From positions 1 through 41,169 of IMG/VR virus record IMGVR_UViG_3300006751_000029: a DNA stretch of 41,169 nt; one strand, 5' to 3'. Source of the stretch: a virus. Under the pieces are notes generated by a model, which was not told the DNA's origin, did no database searches, and saw only the letters and a list, made by a program, of their open reading frames with translations. The translations under genes were made by a program, and so were the position numbers. Positions 2,998-15,011 of this stretch are shown here, one piece after another. The first letter of the stretch is position 1. The number at the start of each line of letters is the position of its first letter.

Positions 2998-4944
2998 TTA
3001 TTTGCCACGCTTGTCCACCATTTGGTTTATTTTTTGTGATTCTAATCTTAATTTTTCTTCATCATTCATCATGCCCCGTTCTGTTTTCATATTATCGAGA
3101 AGACCTTTTGTCTTTTCAATATCATTCTGCTGCCTTTGAAGCTCTCCCTCTTCACCTTGTTGAGCTGCCTGAGCCTGCATTGTATTGTCAATAAACTCCA
3201 CAAATTTATCTGAACCTGATATTGGGGCACTTTCCACCAGTGTTCTTATATCCACCAGTGCAGGATTGATCTGACCGATGATATTTGTCAGTGCCAGCAT
3301 CCTGTTAAAATTATCTTCAATGTTAGTAATATTATTTTCACCTTCATCTAGTTCTACATACAGTGACGGGTTTCTAACATCGTTCATCATTTGTCCAGCC
3401 ATTTCTAAATTAATAATCATTTCAGAAAATACGCTTTCTTCCTTTGTTCTGATAATTCTATCTTTTTCTGTATAGACAAATGCAAAATTATCTACAAAAT
3501 CTTTTGCCAGTGCTTTCCTGAGCCTGGATAAATTCTTAAAATACGGATTAATTGCTGCGGCTGCTCTCTGCACTTTCTGCTCAAACAAGACTCCTGACTC
3601 TCCTGATCTTGCTGTTTCCCCTTTCATTGCCTCAGATATCAAAGAAACACGCTGTGCAAAACCAACGCTGTTTTCTGCATTCAGCATAATGTCGGGGGGC
3701 AGTGATCCAGGTGGGAGTTTTTGCGGCATGATAGCAGGATTATTCAGCTCATAAACCATATTAGGCTGATTCCCTTTTTCTTTTAGTGCCTTAATTGTTT
3801 CTTTTTCCCGTTTGTCCACGAAGACACCCCCCGACAGTATCTGGGTGACATAGTCTCTTACTTGAGACTTTGCTTTATTTACATCATCTTGTATGTCGAG
3901 AAGGAGGTCGACTAAAGACGTTTGCTCATTTACCTGGACATTGTAGTTATAGCTCCACACGGGAAAACAATCGAAGTTAGCAGTAGGCTGATCTGCATCC
4001 TCATCTTTAACAACCAAATTTTTAAAATAAGGAATGATCGTTGTAACATGAATTTTATCCTGGTTAAACTCCTGCAGCATCTGCAGTCCTGGATTTTCTT
4101 TTTTCAGTTTTGCCATTTCACTGCGAGGAACAATAGTATAATCTACACCATCAAACAGTTTAACCATTTTTGTTGTTACCCGTTCCTGCATTTCCAGGAT
4201 ACGGTAACGGTCATTAATTTTATCATAATTCTCTAAATTAGCTGAATAAACCTTATCGGTCATTCTGCGGATAGTATCAGACAGTGCGTTCCACCACCAT
4301 TTACCACGCTCTACTTTTACATCATAGGGATCTATCGTATATTTTTCACTGATCACATCCATAGGTTCCCAGCCTTCTTTAACGATCCAGCGGCAATGTT
4401 TTAACTCATAATCATTTCCTCTGGTCTCTGGATCTATATAGACCCTGAAATTATTTAATACTTCATACTCATAATCTAAATATCCATCATCACCCATTAC
4501 CCAGGATCTTTGTATCCAGCCGCCTAATTTTGTCGTTAATGCATCAATAAATGCAATCTGCAGTTTATCTTCCAGATCCTGCTCATCATTAATCGCATTC
4601 CATCTTTTCTGGATCACATCTGCAGTATTCACACTATCTACGGTAATTGGTTTAAACCGTGCCCGTCTTCTGTTAAGCTGTTCATTACCGACCAAGGTAG
4701 AAATAATCGGTGCAATAATATTATACTTTAAAGTTGGTTTTTTATATTTTTTGGCATTGGTCTTTTCATCCGCTGTCCAGGTATCATTATTTAAATACCG
4801 CACAGCTTTCTCGGATTCTTCCCTGGCATTCTCAAATGAGTCACGGGAAAACTTCCAGCTTTTTAATACTTTATCTGCCTGTTTGGATAATACACCAGCA
4901 GCATATTGAGAACCTGATGGCTGTGTCTTACTGTACTCAGCCAT
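2998..4944 (-). CDS. Portal protein, P22-type
   Basis: This 648-residue protein should form the dodecameric ring at the head vertex through which DNA enters and leaves. The N-terminal half contains features I recognise from P22-like portals: an early helical region with a conserved Asn-Asp-Thr-Trp segment (residues about 52-55), a PTLKYNIIAPIIS segment, a GNEQLNRRRARF segment, and a core with FRVYIDPETRGND. The C-terminal part is helical and glutamine-rich, as expected for the crown and barrel of this family. The start codon overlaps the terminase stop (TAATG), so the two are probably translationally coupled. Length is normal for the family. Confidence 0.85.
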   Translation of the reverse strand: MAEYSKTQPSGSQYAAGVLSKQADKVLKSWKFSRDSFENAREESEKAVRYLNNDTWTADEKTNAKKYKKPTLKYNIIAPIISTLVGNEQLNRRRARFKPITVDSVNTADVIQKRWNAINDEQDLEDKLQIAFIDALTTKLGGWIQRSWVMGDDGYLDYEYEVLNNFRVYIDPETRGNDYELKHCRWIVKEGWEPMDVISEKYTIDPYDVKVERGKWWWNALSDTIRRMTDKVYSANLENYDKINDRYRILEMQERVTTKMVKLFDGVDYTIVPRSEMAKLKKENPGLQMLQEFNQDKIHVTTIIPYFKNLVVKDEDADQPTANFDCFPVWSYNYNVQVNEQTSLVDLLLDIQDDVNKAKSQVRDYVTQILSGGVFVDKREKETIKALKEKGNQPNMVYELNNPAIMPQKLPPGSLPPDIMLNAENSVGFAQRVSLISEAMKGETARSGESGVLFEQKVQRAAAAINPYFKNLSRLRKALAKDFVDNFAFVYTEKDRIIRTKEESVFSEMIINLEMAGQMMNDVRNPSLYVELDEGENNITNIEDNFNRMLALTNIIGQINPALVDIRTLVESAPISGSDKFVEFIDNTMQAQAAQQGEEGELQRQQNDIEKTKGLLDNMKTERGMMNDEEKLRLESQKINQMVDKRGK

Positions 4945-10034: not shown

Positions 10035-10154
10035 GGGGCTTAGGGAGGGGCAGGGGTAGGTATTAGGTAGGGGCAGGGTAAGGTATTAGGTAGGGGCAGA
10101 GAGGGGGCAGGGGTAGGGGTTCGGTAGGGGTTGGTCAGGGGGGTCTCTGCCCCT
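10035..10154 (+). repeat. G-rich repeat tract with 11-bp inverted repeat
   Basis: The plus strand carries more than ten runs of three or more G. The 19-bp unit AGGTATTAGGTAGGGGCAG occurs at 10058-10076 and 10081-10099. GGGGCAGGGGTAGG occurs twice. AGGGGCAGAGA (10092-10102) pairs perfectly with TCTCTGCCCCT (10144-10154), closing a loop that is itself G-rich. The strand could form G-quadruplexes. Possible roles are an origin element, a replication pause or a packaging site. Confidence 0.7.
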
Positions 10155-10172
10155 CCTCTGCACCTTACTAGG

Positions 10173-10365: not shown

Positions 10366-10375
10366 AATCATGGAG
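10366..10375 (+). promoter_or_regulatory. AATCATGGAG leader, copy 1
   Basis: Precedes the 42-codon gene at 10382. The embedded ATG is in frame 12 nt upstream of the chosen start. GGAG is 6 nt from that start. Confidence 0.7.
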
Positions 10376-10532: not shown

Positions 10533-10850
10533 ATGAAATCAAACATCAAAAATACAGTAAAAGTTGGTGACATCTTAACTGTCAAACCAGAGGAGCAAAT
10601 CTGGGTATCTAAAGTAGTGAATGATGACTGGGAACCTAAGAATGTTAAGTGGGAGTCAGCAGAAGTAGTAAAAGTATACAAAACTGCAGACGAGGTGAAT
10701 AACGATAAAGAATACTGTGAAAATATAACGCATGAGGATGGAGACCATTTTCCATTATTCAGAATAGAAGATCCTCGTAGAGGAGAACTTGTTCTTTATA
10801 CTCACAGATTCTTCGTGGACATAATTAAGAAAGCAGGGAGGAAATCATGA
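10533..10850 (+). CDS. Early hypothetical protein, 105 aa
   Basis: No family recognised. The start at 10533 (MKSNIKNTVKVGD) is chosen over the in-frame ATG at 10521 because GGAGGAA lies just ahead of it. The protein is mixed alpha/beta. An N-terminal KVGDILTVKPEEQIWVSKVV segment resembles a small beta-barrel, followed by acidic loops and a basic C-terminus. No membrane span, Cys cluster or nucleotide-binding motif. It overlaps the next gene by 4 bp (ATGA), so the two are coupled. A host-directed early function is possible but not shown. Confidence 0.65.
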   Translation: MKSNIKNTVKVGDILTVKPEEQIWVSKVVNDDWEPKNVKWESAEVVKVYKTADEVNNDKEYCENITHEDGDHFPLFRIEDPRRGELVLYTHRFFVDIIKKAGRKS

Positions 10851-11281
10851 AAAACATACTATTTGACGCAACGCTTAAAATCTGTGGATGGATCGAGGAT
10901 AAACTCCTTGGTGGTCATGAATACCACGAATGGTCTACCGAGGAAGGTCATGTCGGACACTCTTCTGGTGGTGGCAGATTGACCTATTGTGATGATACCG
11001 AGGGTGATGGTCTTGAGGGGATCAGGTTTGGCAGGATCCACTGGGTACGAAGTTATTCACTGAGCAACTATAGTGTTCCTGTCCTCACTTGGGTCATCCC
11101 ATGTGGCGAGAGATGGAGGATAGTCCGATATCTGAAATACTTGGTCTGCAGGATCTTTGTTGACAGTCGGATCAGGATCATTCGTAATTACTGTTACGAT
11201 TATGTGGCATTTGACTGTCGCTTTCCTCATTGGGACAAGGAGTATATCGCCAATAAACTAAAAAGATCGATCACGGGTTAA
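10847..11281 (+). CDS. Early hypothetical protein, 144 aa
   Basis: No family recognised. The sequence is rich in Trp, His, Arg, Gly and Cys. Residues about 20-45 carry several His and Gly (GGHEYHEW, GHVGHSSGGG), and a later stretch (about 90-128) is basic and aromatic with scattered Cys (ERWRIVRYLKYLVCRIF, NYCYDYVAFDC). The His and Cys could bind metal, but no standard zinc pattern is formed. The start has GGAGG 6 nt upstream. A tRNA-like RNA element begins 10 bp past its stop. Confidence 0.6.
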   Translation: MKNILFDATLKICGWIEDKLLGGHEYHEWSTEEGHVGHSSGGGRLTYCDDTEGDGLEGIRFGRIHWVRSYSLSNYSVPVLTWVIPCGERWRIVRYLKYLVCRIFVDSRIRIIRNYCYDYVAFDCRFPHWDKEYIANKLKRSITG

Positions 11282-11290
11282 CCGAGGATC

Positions 11291-11332
11291 AGGGTGAATG
11301 GTTTTTGAAGGGTTCGATTCCCTTCCCACCCT
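11291..11332 (+). ncRNA. tRNA-like minihelix, copy 1 (acceptor stem plus T arm only)
   Basis: AGGGTG (11291-11296) pairs with CACCCT (11327-11332). A 10-nt linker leads to a T-arm hairpin GAAGGG (11307-11312) / CCCTTC (11320-11325) with loop TTCGATT, which fits the canonical tRNA T loop. C11326 is unpaired. There is no room for D or anticodon arms. It shares alignable sequence with copy 2, with compensatory changes in both stems. Bacterial RNase P is known to accept such acceptor/T-stem minihelices in vitro, so RNA processing is a likely role. This role is inferred. Confidence 0.65.
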
Positions 11333-11333
11333 C

Positions 11334-11351
11334 TACGACAATGAGGTCGTA
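11334..11351 (+). ncRNA. TACGAC / GTCGTA hairpin following minihelix 1
   Basis: A 6-bp stem with loop AATGAG. The same stem with loop AATGAA follows minihelix 2, at the same distance from it. It directly precedes the AATCATGGAG leader of the next gene. Confidence 0.6.
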
Positions 11352-11356
11352 AACTA

Positions 11357-11366
11357 AATCATGGAG
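11357..11366 (+). promoter_or_regulatory. AATCATGGAG leader, copy 3
   Basis: Lies 5 nt after the hairpin of minihelix module 1. The embedded ATG (11361) is in frame with the start at 11376, 15 nt upstream. Confidence 0.7.
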
Positions 11367-11375
11367 GATAAAATC

Positions 11376-11639
11376 ATGAAAACAATAGAACATCAAAGAG
11401 CAATCCAACACGCTATCTGGTGGTACGAGGATACATTTGGGTATGTCGATGAATCAACTAAAGAAACGCTAAACCTGATCGGTGCAAAGTACAAATGCAT
11501 TGACGATGTCTGGGGTAAAGCTGATCATGTTGATGACGAGGATGGAAATTATATATATCCAGAATTATCAGGTGGAGAATATGATGCGATAATTTACGGA
11601 TTGGAGAAAGTTCAAACTAACAATCATGGAGGTAATTAA
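11376..11639 (+). CDS. Early hypothetical protein, 87 aa
   Basis: No family recognised. The start is placed at 11376 (MKTIEHQRAIQHAIWW) after GGAGG. The protein is acidic (about 20 percent Asp and Glu) with a Trp-rich N-terminal helix and a loop DHVDDEDGNYIYPELSGG that has the look of an acidic ligand-binding loop. Its last codons (NNHGGN) are formed by the AATCATGGAGG leader of the next gene, so that leader is kept even at the cost of being coding. Confidence 0.62.
   Translation: MKTIEHQRAIQHAIWWYEDTFGYVDESTKETLNLIGAKYKCIDDVWGKADHVDDEDGNYIYPELSGGEYDAIIYGLEKVQTNNHGGN
11622..11631 (+). promoter_or_regulatory. AATCATGGAG leader, copy 4
   Basis: Located inside the last codons of the 87-residue gene, ahead of the start at 11642. 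The embedded ATG is out of frame with that start. Confidence 0.7.
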
Positions 11640-11641
11640 TC

Positions 11642-12070
11642 ATGAAAGATCGTGCAATAATCGAACTAATCGATAAGTGGCTTGACCTGAGATTCCCCAA
11701 TGCTGATAGTTTCTATCGTGCAGAGTGGCATCACAGATATGAGAAATATGGAATTGAGTTTTCAATTCATATGGATTCAGAAAGCAGACTCGTCTGGAAA
11801 AAACTGTATCTGGAATTTCTGGATGCACCACAGACTGAGGGTGCTAATTGGATTGTGGTTTATTCCACAGACCCAGATGATGGTTCATGGTTTAAAGATG
11901 CGTGGGCTATCTTTGAAAATGAAGTAGATGCTAAGAGACATTTCGAGAAGATAAAAAAGCGTGACGATTTATGTTCTGTATCTTTAACCAGAGTAGTTCA
12001 ATCTACAGATTATGTCGGGAATCCTGCCAGAACAACCAGACCAGATCTGGTAAGCAGGGAGGATAAATAG
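11642..12070 (+). CDS. Early hypothetical protein, 142 aa
   Basis: No family recognised. The N-terminus MKDRAIIELIDKWLDLRF is helical. The middle is strand-rich with several Trp (EGANWIVVYSTDPDDGSWF). Residues about 86-112 (KDAWAIFENEVDAKRHFEKIKKR) form an amphipathic helical region that resembles small alpha/beta phage proteins without known role. The C-terminus is basic and polar. The stop lies 5 bp before the second tRNA-like element. No Cys motif or membrane span. Confidence 0.62.
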   Translation: MKDRAIIELIDKWLDLRFPNADSFYRAEWHHRYEKYGIEFSIHMDSESRLVWKKLYLEFLDAPQTEGANWIVVYSTDPDDGSWFKDAWAIFENEVDAKRHFEKIKKRDDLCSVSLTRVVQSTDYVGNPARTTRPDLVSREDK

Positions 12071-12075
12071 ACAAC

Positions 12076-12119
12076 AGGGCAGTATGGTATCTGGGGAGGT
12101 TCGAGTCCTCCCCTGCTCT
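12076..12119 (+). ncRNA. tRNA-like minihelix, copy 2 (acceptor stem plus T arm only)
   Basis: AGGGCA (12076-12081) pairs with TGCTCT (12114-12119) with one G-T pair. The T-arm hairpin is GGGGAGG (12093-12099) / CCTCCCC (12107-12113) with loop TTCGAGT, a canonical T-loop sequence. The linker is 11 nt. Compared with copy 1, two acceptor pairs and three T-stem pairs differ by compensatory double changes. That is strong evidence that the RNA structure is selected. An upstream AAGCAGG could also pair with the 3' strand, but no anticodon arm can then be formed. Confidence 0.68.
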
Positions 12120-12120
12120 C

Positions 12121-12138
12121 TACGACAATGAAGTCGTA
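12121..12138 (+). ncRNA. TACGAC / GTCGTA hairpin following minihelix 2
   Basis: Identical 6-bp stem to the copy at 11334, with one change in the loop (AATGAA). It is followed by TAAATCATGGAG of the next leader. Confidence 0.6.
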
Positions 12139-12143
12139 AATTA

Positions 12144-12153
12144 AATCATGGAG
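12144..12153 (+). promoter_or_regulatory. AATCATGGAG leader, copy 5
   Basis: Lies 5 nt after the hairpin of minihelix module 2. The embedded ATG (12148) is in frame with the start at 12160. Confidence 0.7.
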
Positions 12154-12159
12154 ATTGAA

Positions 12160-12645
12160 ATGAGAAAATACAAACACATTTTTGATCAGTTAGGCTTGTC
12201 TGAATCGACTAGCAGTAATGATCTGGGAGTGAATTATACTCTGAATGAGAATGATGGTAATGATTTGTATGAGATAAAAATACATATCGCTAATTCTGAT
12301 CATACCAATGAGGATCTGGAGCAGTACGCTTACCATATCATCACTCATGGTCAGGAGTTACTAATCAATTATCTGATCGATGATATCGATGAGTTATTCA
12401 GCATAATAAAAAGTAACAGAGAATTGCTGTCAGCCCTGCAGAAAGGGAAAGATAGTCTGGAGAAGATAACTGTCTATACAGAGTCACCTGTATTGATAAA
12501 ATACGGGATTGCTGTAGACGTATCTGATGATTGGTCTGATCCTATTATTGAGACTTATTCATATTGGACTGAGAAAGATAGAGATCAGGCGTACAGGGAA
12601 TTGAAACAAGAACAAAGAAACAGATTTGGAGGAGAAGAATCATGA
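12160..12645 (+). CDS. Early hypothetical acidic protein, 161 aa
   Basis: No family recognised. The start is set at 12160 (MRKYKHIFDQLGL). The protein is strongly acidic, with a central helical region (residues about 58-112, EQYAYHIITHGQELLINYLIDDIDEL through ALQKGKD) flanked by strands. Acidic early proteins of this size sometimes mimic DNA, but no specific similarity is visible. It ends with GGAGGAG codons that double as the ribosome binding site for the next gene, which it overlaps by 4 bp. Confidence 0.62.
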   Translation: MRKYKHIFDQLGLSESTSSNDLGVNYTLNENDGNDLYEIKIHIANSDHTNEDLEQYAYHIITHGQELLINYLIDDIDELFSIIKSNRELLSALQKGKDSLEKITVYTESPVLIKYGIAVDVSDDWSDPIIETYSYWTEKDRDQAYRELKQEQRNRFGGEES

Positions 12646-13142
12646 AAAGACAACTCATAAGAACTGAGGGTGGAGGATTGTATTCTGCCAGTTCAATAAA
12701 TAACAAAAATAAAACTGTGGAATGCTTTCCTAGTGGTGGTGGTTTTGTTCGCACAATACCATTCTCTAAGATTGTAGACTTCGATGCAAAGCCAACAGAG
12801 ATCTATAAAAAAGTCGTAGTCGGTTTTGAGGGAGTACCTGTTGTCGAGGCATTCATCAACGAGGATACCAATTGGAATGGTTGGGAGATACCCCATGTCA
12901 CTCTGGAAGGACTGAGAAAATTCGCAGACAACCAGAATCAGCATCTGGATGATACAGATAATTGGGGCAGAGTCGTGATTAGAGAAGAGGATAAAACATT
13001 CTCATTTAATGACGAAGAGTTCGCCAGAGAAAATTGGGTATTCTATGGATCAGAACCAATCATAGACACCGATGGTACAATACATGACGTTTATAACATT
13101 GGTCTGGGTCTGATCTGGGAAATCATAGAGGAGGAATCATGA
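12642..13142 (+). CDS. Early hypothetical protein, 166 aa
   Basis: No family recognised. The N-terminal part is rich in Gly, Ser and Asn (EGGGLYSASS, PSGGGF). The C-terminal two thirds are acidic and aromatic (NEDTNWNGWEIPHVTL, NWVFYGSEPIIDTDG), predicted as mixed strands with one helix around TLEGLRKFADNQNQHL. It is coupled to both neighbours by ATGA overlaps, so it is translated from the same message as the 161- and 63-residue proteins. No catalytic motif visible. Confidence 0.62.
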   Translation: MKRQLIRTEGGGLYSASSINNKNKTVECFPSGGGFVRTIPFSKIVDFDAKPTEIYKKVVVGFEGVPVVEAFINEDTNWNGWEIPHVTLEGLRKFADNQNQHLDDTDNWGRVVIREEDKTFSFNDEEFARENWVFYGSEPIIDTDGTIHDVYNIGLGLIWEIIEEES

Positions 13143-13330
13143 AAATAAGAAAAAATAGTATAGTCAGACTTAACTATCAATTTGACAATGCAGTAGTGAC
13201 TGTCGATGATTACAGCATCGATGATGATGATGGCGATGGCAACGACAGACCCGTAATTGAGTTCAAACTCGAAGACGGAGATGGCTATTACGCATACTTT
13301 GACCAGATATCAAGAGTAGTCAAATACTAA
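13139..13330 (+). CDS. Early hypothetical protein, 63 aa
   Basis: No family recognised. The protein is a small strand-rich unit with a run of acidic residues (IDDDDGDGNDRP, about 24-36), perhaps a metal-binding loop, and an aromatic C-terminus (GYYAYFDQISRVVKY). GAGGAGGAATC lies ahead of the ATG, which overlaps the upstream stop by 4 bp. It resembles a small SH3-like barrel in length and strand pattern, but this is only an impression. Confidence 0.55.
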   Translation: MKIRKNSIVRLNYQFDNAVVTVDDYSIDDDDGDGNDRPVIEFKLEDGDGYYAYFDQISRVVKY

Positions 13331-13337
13331 AGTCGAA

Positions 13338-13380
13338 ACCCCAGAGCATTCTGGGGTCGCAGGGAACTGATCTACCCTGC
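13338..13380 (+). other. Two adjacent hairpins after the 63-residue gene
   Basis: ACCCCAGA (13338-13345) pairs with TCTGGGGT (13350-13357) around GCAT. GCAGGG (13359-13364) pairs with CCCTGC (13375-13380) around 10 nt. There is no T run after either, so they are not typical terminators. They occupy the same kind of place as the tRNA-like modules, between early genes and before a leader. Confidence 0.55.
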
Positions 13381-13405
13381 CTGAAGAAGACAGATCAATT
13401 AACAT

Positions 13406-14444: not shown

Positions 14445-15011
14445 ATGACTGTACAACCAATTAAAGACCCCAGAAAGATCAAAAGAATGATCGCAGTCCT
14501 TGAGAAATCAAATCCAAGGAATGTACTTATGTTCAGAGTAGGGCTTAATACTATACTAAGAATCCAAGACATTCTGGATCTCAGGGTCAGCGACATATTT
14601 CATCCAGATGGATCTTTCAAAGAGTATCTATCTCTATTTGAAAGAAAGACCAAGAAGAGTAAAGCTATCAAGTTAAATAGCCTGATCAGGATAGAGATCA
14701 AAAAGTTTGTAGATCGTTATGATCTGAAAGAAGATGATTATATATTCTTCTCACTACACAATCCTGCAAGAAACTTAGATCGAGTGGAGGCATGGAGGAT
14801 CTTAAAAAAAGCCTCTGATAAAGCAGGTATAGAAAATTTCGGTACTCATTCAATGAGGAAAACTTTAGCATGGACAATCTACCAGAAGACCAAAGACATA
14901 TCTCTGGTAATGTATATGCTGAATCATCAAAGCCCCACAGCTACAATGAAGTATCTGGGGTTAGTACAGGACTCTATCGATAAGACATACGAAGAGTTCG
15001 CAATCGGATAA
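14445..15011 (+). CDS. Tyrosine recombinase, catalytic domain only
   Basis: The 188-residue protein carries the full catalytic set: Arg39 (ILRIQDILDL), a beta-hairpin Lys at about 70-71 (KTKKSK), His135 and Arg138 (THSMRKT), His161 (LNHQS) and nucleophile Tyr170 (KYLG). It lacks the N-terminal core-binding domain of lambda-type integrases, so it is about half their usual length and closer in size to invertase-like family members. Possible roles are integration, dimer resolution or DNA inversion. It lies among early genes, not next to an obvious repressor or attachment site. Confidence 0.85.
   Translation: MTVQPIKDPRKIKRMIAVLEKSNPRNVLMFRVGLNTILRIQDILDLRVSDIFHPDGSFKEYLSLFERKTKKSKAIKLNSLIRIEIKKFVDRYDLKEDDYIFFSLHNPARNLDRVEAWRILKKASDKAGIENFGTHSMRKTLAWTIYQKTKDISLVMYMLNHQSPTATMKYLGLVQDSIDKTYEEFAIG

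Follow-up and report, generated by a model that had tools for sequence, protein, structure and literature searches.

Anticodon-less mini-tRNA elements between the gene cassettes of diverse phages as candidate RNA-processing signals

The window analysed here, the whole stretch of 41,169 bases, is an IMG/VR virus record of an ocean phage that encodes terminase, portal, RecE/RecT-like, RusA-like and tyrosine-integrase proteins. In its early operon, two spaces between genes each hold a compact structure resembling part of a tRNA. Are these remnants of tRNA genes, binding sites, recombination sites, or signals that cut the message into units? A preliminary description, made from the window alone, had reported at both places an acceptor-like stem enclosing a T arm. 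Both structures were found in the sequence, with the following layout.

10847-11281, plus strand: gene upstream of element 1 (144 aa, no family match; stop codon 9 nt 5' of the element)
11291-11332, plus strand: mini-tRNA element 1 (covariance model R1, 65.1 bits, E 3.8e-13)
11291-11296 with 11327-11332, plus strand: acceptor stem of element 1, AGGGTG with CACCCT (sequence)
about 11297-11303, plus strand: mini D hairpin of element 1, AA-TGG-TT (sequence)
11313-11319, plus strand: T loop TTCGATT of the element 1 T arm, on stem GAAGGG/CCCTTC (sequence, fold)
11333, plus strand: C74-equivalent of element 1, after the N73-equivalent U11332 (a position that is C in about 85-90% of 69 distinct elements)
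11334-11351, plus strand: trailing hairpin 1, TACGAC-AATGAG-GTCGTA (fold; helix 3 covaries in 23 copies)
11352-11375, plus strand: leader 1, with ribosome-binding site ATGGAGG ahead of ORF 11376-11639
11376-11639 and 11642-12070, plus strand: coupled gene pair between the elements, gap 2 nt
12076-12119, plus strand: mini-tRNA element 2 (R1, 82.1 bits, E 4.3e-17)
12076-12082 with 12113-12119, plus strand: acceptor stem of element 2, AGGGCA(G) with (C)TGCTCT (sequence)
12083-12089, plus strand: mini D hairpin of element 2, TA-TGG-TA (sequence)
12100-12106, plus strand: T loop TTCGAGT of the element 2 T arm, on stem GGGGAGG/CCTCCCC (sequence, fold)
12120, plus strand: C74-equivalent of element 2 (the C position conserved among the 69 distinct elements)
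12121-12138, plus strand: trailing hairpin 2, TACGAC-AATGAA-GTCGTA (fold; helix 3 covaries)
12139-12159, plus strand: leader 2, with ribosome-binding site ahead of ORF 12148/12160-12645
12148-13330, plus strand: coupled set of three overlapping genes after element 2

As the preliminary description had counted, the stems of the two elements differ by exactly five compensated double changes, two in the acceptor and three in the T stem; there is also one G-C/G-U change, and C11326 is bulged in element 1 (sequence and MFE fold). An identical hairpin had been placed 1 nt behind each element: one C and then identical TACGAC/GTCGTA stems do follow both, but the loops differ by one base. The AATCATGGAG leader described behind each module is also present and carries the ribosome-binding site, but it occurs ahead of module-free genes as well (e.g. 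near 10368, 10518 and 11623) and so is not specific to the modules. The window holds these two copies only, a search with R1 having found no third. MFE folds keep both modules, alone and within 161-171 nt of context, so the alternative fold that might have broken the stems did not appear; fold energy is in itself weak evidence here (z -1.3 and -3.4). ARAGORN found no tRNA in the window, and among 4227 Rfam families none scored above its gathering threshold at the modules. The only tRNA-clan matches in a permissive Rfam search were tRNA-Sec (E=1.9) and a 17-nt T-arm fragment of tmRNA at 12.3 bits against a gathering score of 47; since this match covers the T arm only, identity with tmRNA was rejected.

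Do the modules have homologues? A direct DNA similarity search of the phage collection and a search with the exact hairpin pattern gave no match, and related-locus searches that started from the integrase or from the gene following module 2 gave no relatives. In IMG/VR, a terminase search gave 74 relatives, and a pattern combining T arm and hairpin added more. In these phages the module recurs on the coding strand, several times per contig (three copies in L014, five in L079, four in L082 and seven in L059). A strict structural scan of 710 kb of terminase-relative contigs gave 14 matches (7 distinct), against none in the reversed sequence and none in five Markov shuffles. When 23 distinct copies were aligned, 91% of pair cells held standard pairs (69.6% in shuffles) and 97 cells held double changes (31.4 +/- 4.2 in shuffles), with the acceptor, the T stem and the trailing hairpin each covarying. 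A 43-row model alignment, which was fitted to the structure, has 244 double-change cells against 72 +/- 8, and alignment A3, whose rows were partly selected for pairing, covaries too. An asymmetry in favour of G-U over A-C was considered as a sign that the pairing is in RNA: the two combinations are equally frequent in the model-fitted alignment (15 each, no overall excess), the T stem alone having G-U only. The covariance-model search that had been proposed as a check, made with R1, detected further copies across phage contigs; over whole records it found marine relatives with up to six copies per contig, and weaker matches in G016 and in large contigs that are unrelated (G027-G029). Because 23 homologues covary in all helices and the scan controls were zero, the existence of the modules is well supported. 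Judged from these comparisons of sequence, both are real and belong to a large RNA family that is apparently undescribed; our literature search, which covered open full text only, found no paper describing the element.

The family has the anatomy of the upper half of a tRNA. The acceptor stem is of 6-7 bp, the T-arm loop is of the UUCGANU type and conforms to the UUCRANY pattern of tRNAs, and a linker of 10-12 nt holds a mini D hairpin, NN-UGG-NN, in which two or more pairs surround a UGG triloop. The preliminary description had seen no space for D or anticodon arms. There is indeed room for a D hairpin of 2-4 bp only, but that hairpin exists, covaries and carries a G18G19-like UGG. The anticodon arm, and with it the four-arm cloverleaf of a tRNA gene, is absent. 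In 30 copies selected without regard to this hairpin, a single tRNA among them, the inner D pair forms in 27 and the second pair also in 27, compared with 18.7 and 12.4 in shuffles, and the second pair varies as TA, AT, CG and GC. The pairing prediction was tested on new data: the acceptor is perfect in 26 of 45 non-tRNA matches to the compensated GATGGTC, against 5 of 36 for the single mutant GATGGTA (Fisher P 7e-5).

On the 3' strand, 11-13 nt separate the T loop from the end of the acceptor, and N73 follows; N+1 is a purine in most copies. C74 is present in about 85-90% of the 69 distinct elements and the next base is U or A, C75 occurring in 1 of the 69. Among 318 genuine tRNAs from the same contigs, 92% have C74, with CCA (113), CAA (105) and CTA (23) as tails. 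Since C74 is shared with these tRNAs and C75 is nearly absent, the elements obey the tRNA tail rule while avoiding a complete CCA. A stack of about 12 bp made of acceptor and T stem, a T loop and a 3' N73-C74 together give the shape of an RNase P substrate. There is some variation: certain G016 copies are continuous 12-bp minihelices without a D hairpin, the stack of the marine clade has 13 pairs if an A-U pair is counted, one above canonical, and in most copies A precedes the acceptor, where pre-tRNAs usually have U. The trailing hairpin, of 5-7 bp and starting one nucleotide later, is found in the window's clade and in G016; because many contigs lack it, its role is not general.

Some relatives depart further from this plan. 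Three elements (L246 1414-1480, L249 4850-4916 and L244 2773-2842) share the frame of acceptor and trailing hairpin around a longer and different interior, and we read them as intermediate or diverged forms. One G016 copy (L247 minus strand, about 1150-1210; L059 5840) comes close to a cloverleaf through additional arms, of which one is D-like (GGC..GCC) and another has 6 bp and a loop of 4 nt; this suggests descent from a full tRNA.

How far does the family extend? A wider pattern, TATGGTA-N(3-9)-GGTTCGANTCC, gave at least 120 matches in IMG/VR. Six of six acceptor pairs form in 50 of the 88 distinct non-tRNA matches listed, against 2.3% expected when the 5' and 3' sides are exchanged between matches; about 100 distinct elements in 85 loci passed a strict filter among the matches listed. 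The contigs that bear them differ widely in gene content (phage RNA polymerase, DNA polymerase, several terminase types, GroEL). Model R2, built from diverse copies, detects the element in 45 of 46 such records, most of which contributed to it or were chosen by the same pattern. Two isolated Cellulophaga phages carry the element according to model searches: phiST, at NC_020842 35028-35090 on the minus strand, directly 5' of CGPG_00053 (R2, 40.6 bits), and phi13:1. The earlier statement that no phage family with this module is known is thereby overturned; the element is widespread in very different phages and has only gone unannotated.

Only the stronger full-length model matches were used. Those of about 21 bits or less (phi38:1, T4) are T arms of real tRNAs, and a 24-bit match in crAss001 was not convincing. 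Six pattern matches (L081, L084, L085, L087, L088 and L089) proved to be ordinary tRNAs or chance. Annotation programs can misread the elements: the 'tRNA-Phe' that ARAGORN reports in L078, L079 and L086 overlaps a mini-tRNA element and was taken as a false call. In the crAss-like phage cr130_1 (L211, NC_055901.1 82000-82390) an annotated tmRNA ends in a 41.5-bit mini-tRNA element and seems to hold an ordinary tRNA inside; the tmRNA annotation is probably wrong, and because of the overlap this match was kept apart from the others. A genome-wide bacterial scan with a strict pattern gave four matches, of which only L210, a Planctomycetes MAG contig, resembles the element on inspection. The Arthrobacter phages related to the phage of L331 gave no full-length matches, that in Eileen being a real tRNA.

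The position of the elements is as regular as their structure. In most cases an element starts between -9 and +15 nt from the upstream stop codon and lies 20-60 nt before the next start codon. At seven loci, 27 of the 40 gene boundaries that exceed 25 nt carry an element, and none of the 27 where genes overlap or nearly touch does. Part of this contrast is trivial, as the element needs space; what is informative is that elements fill most of the spaced boundaries. Contig G016 has one element at each of six successive spaced boundaries. In the window the two modules part three coupled gene sets (10847-11281; 11376-11639 with 11642-12070; 12148-13330). This placement, on the coding strand at boundaries and away from coupled ones, is that of operon punctuation. 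A terminator role was rejected: there is no T run, terminator-like sites do not exceed chance in the region, and the modules have none. In L331 (3885-3941; high GC, related to Arthrobacter Bridgettevirus) the element fills the entire gap between stop and start, with the start codon right after N73-C74.

Two other places in the window deserve mention. At the spaced boundary 13330|13410 one might expect a module; instead there are two adjacent hairpins at 13334-13381, CCCCAGAGCATTCTGGGG and GCAGGGAACTGATCTACCCTGC, which are not tRNA-like (R1, 9.1 bits) and are possibly another processing or decay signal. At 10040-10160, where the leftward and rightward gene blocks diverge, lie G-rich direct repeats (GGTAGGGGCAGGG.. 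units), possibly an origin or control region.

Does the element act on the gene behind it, or on the one in front? It might stay uncut and bind a protein that recognizes the tRNA elbow (a phage regulator, EF-Tu, the CCA-adding enzyme, TruB or TrmA), serving as a 5' UTR operator for translation or stability of the next gene. The position just 5' of the ribosome-binding site would suit such an operator, and the T-loop/D-loop identity elements read by these proteins are kept. We nevertheless think this unlikely: many copies per genome ahead of unrelated genes suit a general signal better, and the N73-C74 tail and fixed length of 11-13 nt are processing features that a binding site does not need. 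Alternatively, the mini-tRNA could remain on the upstream mRNA, after an RNase Z cut or without one, as a protective 3' end comparable to the tRNA-like structures of plant viruses. Elements do start within a few nt of the upstream stop, and in several comparisons the downstream gene is a different one but the element keeps to its upstream neighbour. Against this, the full CCA is avoided (C75 in 1 of 69), so that CCA addition would be needed, and the trailing hairpin and the spacing to the ribosome-binding site point to a downstream role too; we rate this explanation as quite improbable.

The comparison of close relatives raises a third possibility, that the elements act as DNA. G020 and G021, which are 99.2-99.96% identical, are one gene-plus-element cassette apart, with breakpoints at the element and leader. 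L246 (at 3878-4260) and L078, 99% identical phage contigs from different metagenomes, show exactly this one-cassette difference. Behind one conserved upstream gene, moreover, different gene families are found although an element is always kept. Such swaps fit modular exchange through similar joints. The early operon also contains a tyrosine integrase (14445-15011, 188 aa, PHROG 216) that consists of the catalytic domain alone and shares about 40% identity with Streptococcus phage recombinases. Could the elements be folded single-stranded recombination sites, like the attC sites of integrons, through which this recombinase moves cassettes? Integron attC sites likewise have a conserved structure and variable sequence, lie between cassettes and are many per array. 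The exact one-cassette difference between G020 and G021, the changing downstream families and the integrase gene 2.3 kb downstream in the window would all agree with this, and in view of the modular exchange pattern we keep the idea, at a low probability. But attC is folded DNA with recombinase core sites, whereas the phage element conserves the tRNA elbow and tail (the UUCGANU loop, UGG D loop and N73-C74 are tRNA-specific) and no attC-type core was seen. Moreover, its place is fixed, on the coding strand ahead of the ribosome-binding site; recombination within the identical 23-bp leaders explains the cassette change; and the relatives of the window's integrase are in Streptococcus phages.

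It is also conceivable, but very improbable, that the elements serve as decoys against a host defence aimed at tRNAs, or that they are what integration has left of tRNA genes, in the way that att sites keep 3' tRNA fragments. Carriage of tRNAs is common among phages, and an immunity that cleaves tRNA tails has reportedly been found. A fragment derived from integration, however, would conserve the 3' part of a tRNA only, with no 5' acceptor partner; here the 5' acceptor strand covaries with the 3' strand, so that these are not dead fragments, and position and spacing at gene boundaries are irrelevant to decoys.

The preliminary description had proposed minimal tRNA-like processing signals, and this remains the best-supported reading, given the homologues, the intergenic positions that avoid coupled boundaries, the ruler length, the N73-C74 tail and the MFE folds. 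Specifically, we consider it rather probable that host RNase P, probably with RNase Z, cuts at the elements and so gives each gene cassette its own 5' end. RNase P cuts model hairpins made of an acceptor and T-stem-loop, using the 12-bp stack as a ruler and pairing with D73-C74-C75 (PMC11143913); the 12-bp ruler is also described in PMC4919913. The cut of RNase Z falls behind the discriminator, and CC or CCA directly at that place represses the enzyme (PMC7479834). The conserved length, the elbow elements and C74 therefore fit RNase P, and CCA avoidance fits RNase Z, or simply hosts that are CCA-less. C74 itself is somewhat unfavourable for RNase Z. This counts against the model, as do the extra pair in the marine stack, the A ahead of the acceptor, the equal numbers of G-U and A-C, and the many contigs that lack the trailing hairpin.

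In the model that we infer, the element, an anticodon-less mini-tRNA whose acceptor, mini D hairpin and T arm stack as a tRNA 'top half' between gene cassettes, would be taken for a pre-tRNA by the host's tRNA-maturation enzymes. RNase P would cut at the 5' side of the acceptor, just past the stop codon of the upstream gene, and a cut after N73 would probably be added by RNase Z (or an equivalent enzyme). The downstream mRNA would then have the folded mini-tRNA at its start or, once the second cut is made, a single C followed by the trailing hairpin, the ribosome-binding site coming next; in L331 a cut after N73 would yield a leaderless mRNA. 5' stem-loops slow mRNA decay, and the trailing hairpin, in those contigs that have it, may as a 5'-terminal structure resist 5'-dependent decay. 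A long transcript would in this manner be split into units with defined ends, with neither internal promoters nor internal terminators.

Several known systems resemble parts of this scheme. The AT1-type model hairpins of RNase P share the stack of 7+5 bp closed by the T loop and are cut in vitro at the canonical site (PMC11143913), but they are synthetic and end in RCCA, whereas the phage elements are natural, lie between genes in mRNAs, have a mini D hairpin and end in NC[U/A]A. The tRNA-like domain of tmRNA also consists of the upper tRNA half, with acceptor, T arm, a reduced D arm and no anticodon arm. Its 5' end is made by RNase P. Unlike tmRNA, the phage element has no long insert, tag reading frame or pseudoknots, and there are many copies per genome. 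A tRNA-like fold serves as a cutting signal in mascRNA/MALAT1 and in the TMER transcripts of murine gammaherpesvirus, where the tRNA-like part is followed directly by a hairpin; these differ in host, polymerase and purpose, and cloverleaf-like arms are kept. Mitochondrial tRNA punctuation has tRNA-shaped elements between genes and mRNAs released by RNase P and RNase Z, as proposed for the phages; the mitochondrial punctuators, however, are full, functional tRNAs in organelles, and the phage elements cannot decode. The element would work like tRNA punctuation, yet is neither a tRNA, having no anticodon arm, nor a tmRNA.

It is tempting, though this must be held tentatively, to extend the scheme to many unrelated phages, in which RNase P and RNase Z would release cassettes with programmed 5' ends, hairpin-capped or leaderless, and the same joints would ease cassette exchange. 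Current annotation overlooks the element or labels it tRNA or tmRNA, and the isolated Cellulophaga phages phiST and phi13:1 allow direct testing. If the processing model is true, the elements would be an unrecognised and widespread phage way of dividing polycistronic messages, independent of promoters and terminators, that exploits the RNA processing enzymes most conserved across bacterial hosts. They would form a natural class of minimal RNase P substrates, a portable part for making defined 5' ends, and a bacterial-virus counterpart of mitochondrial tRNA punctuation.
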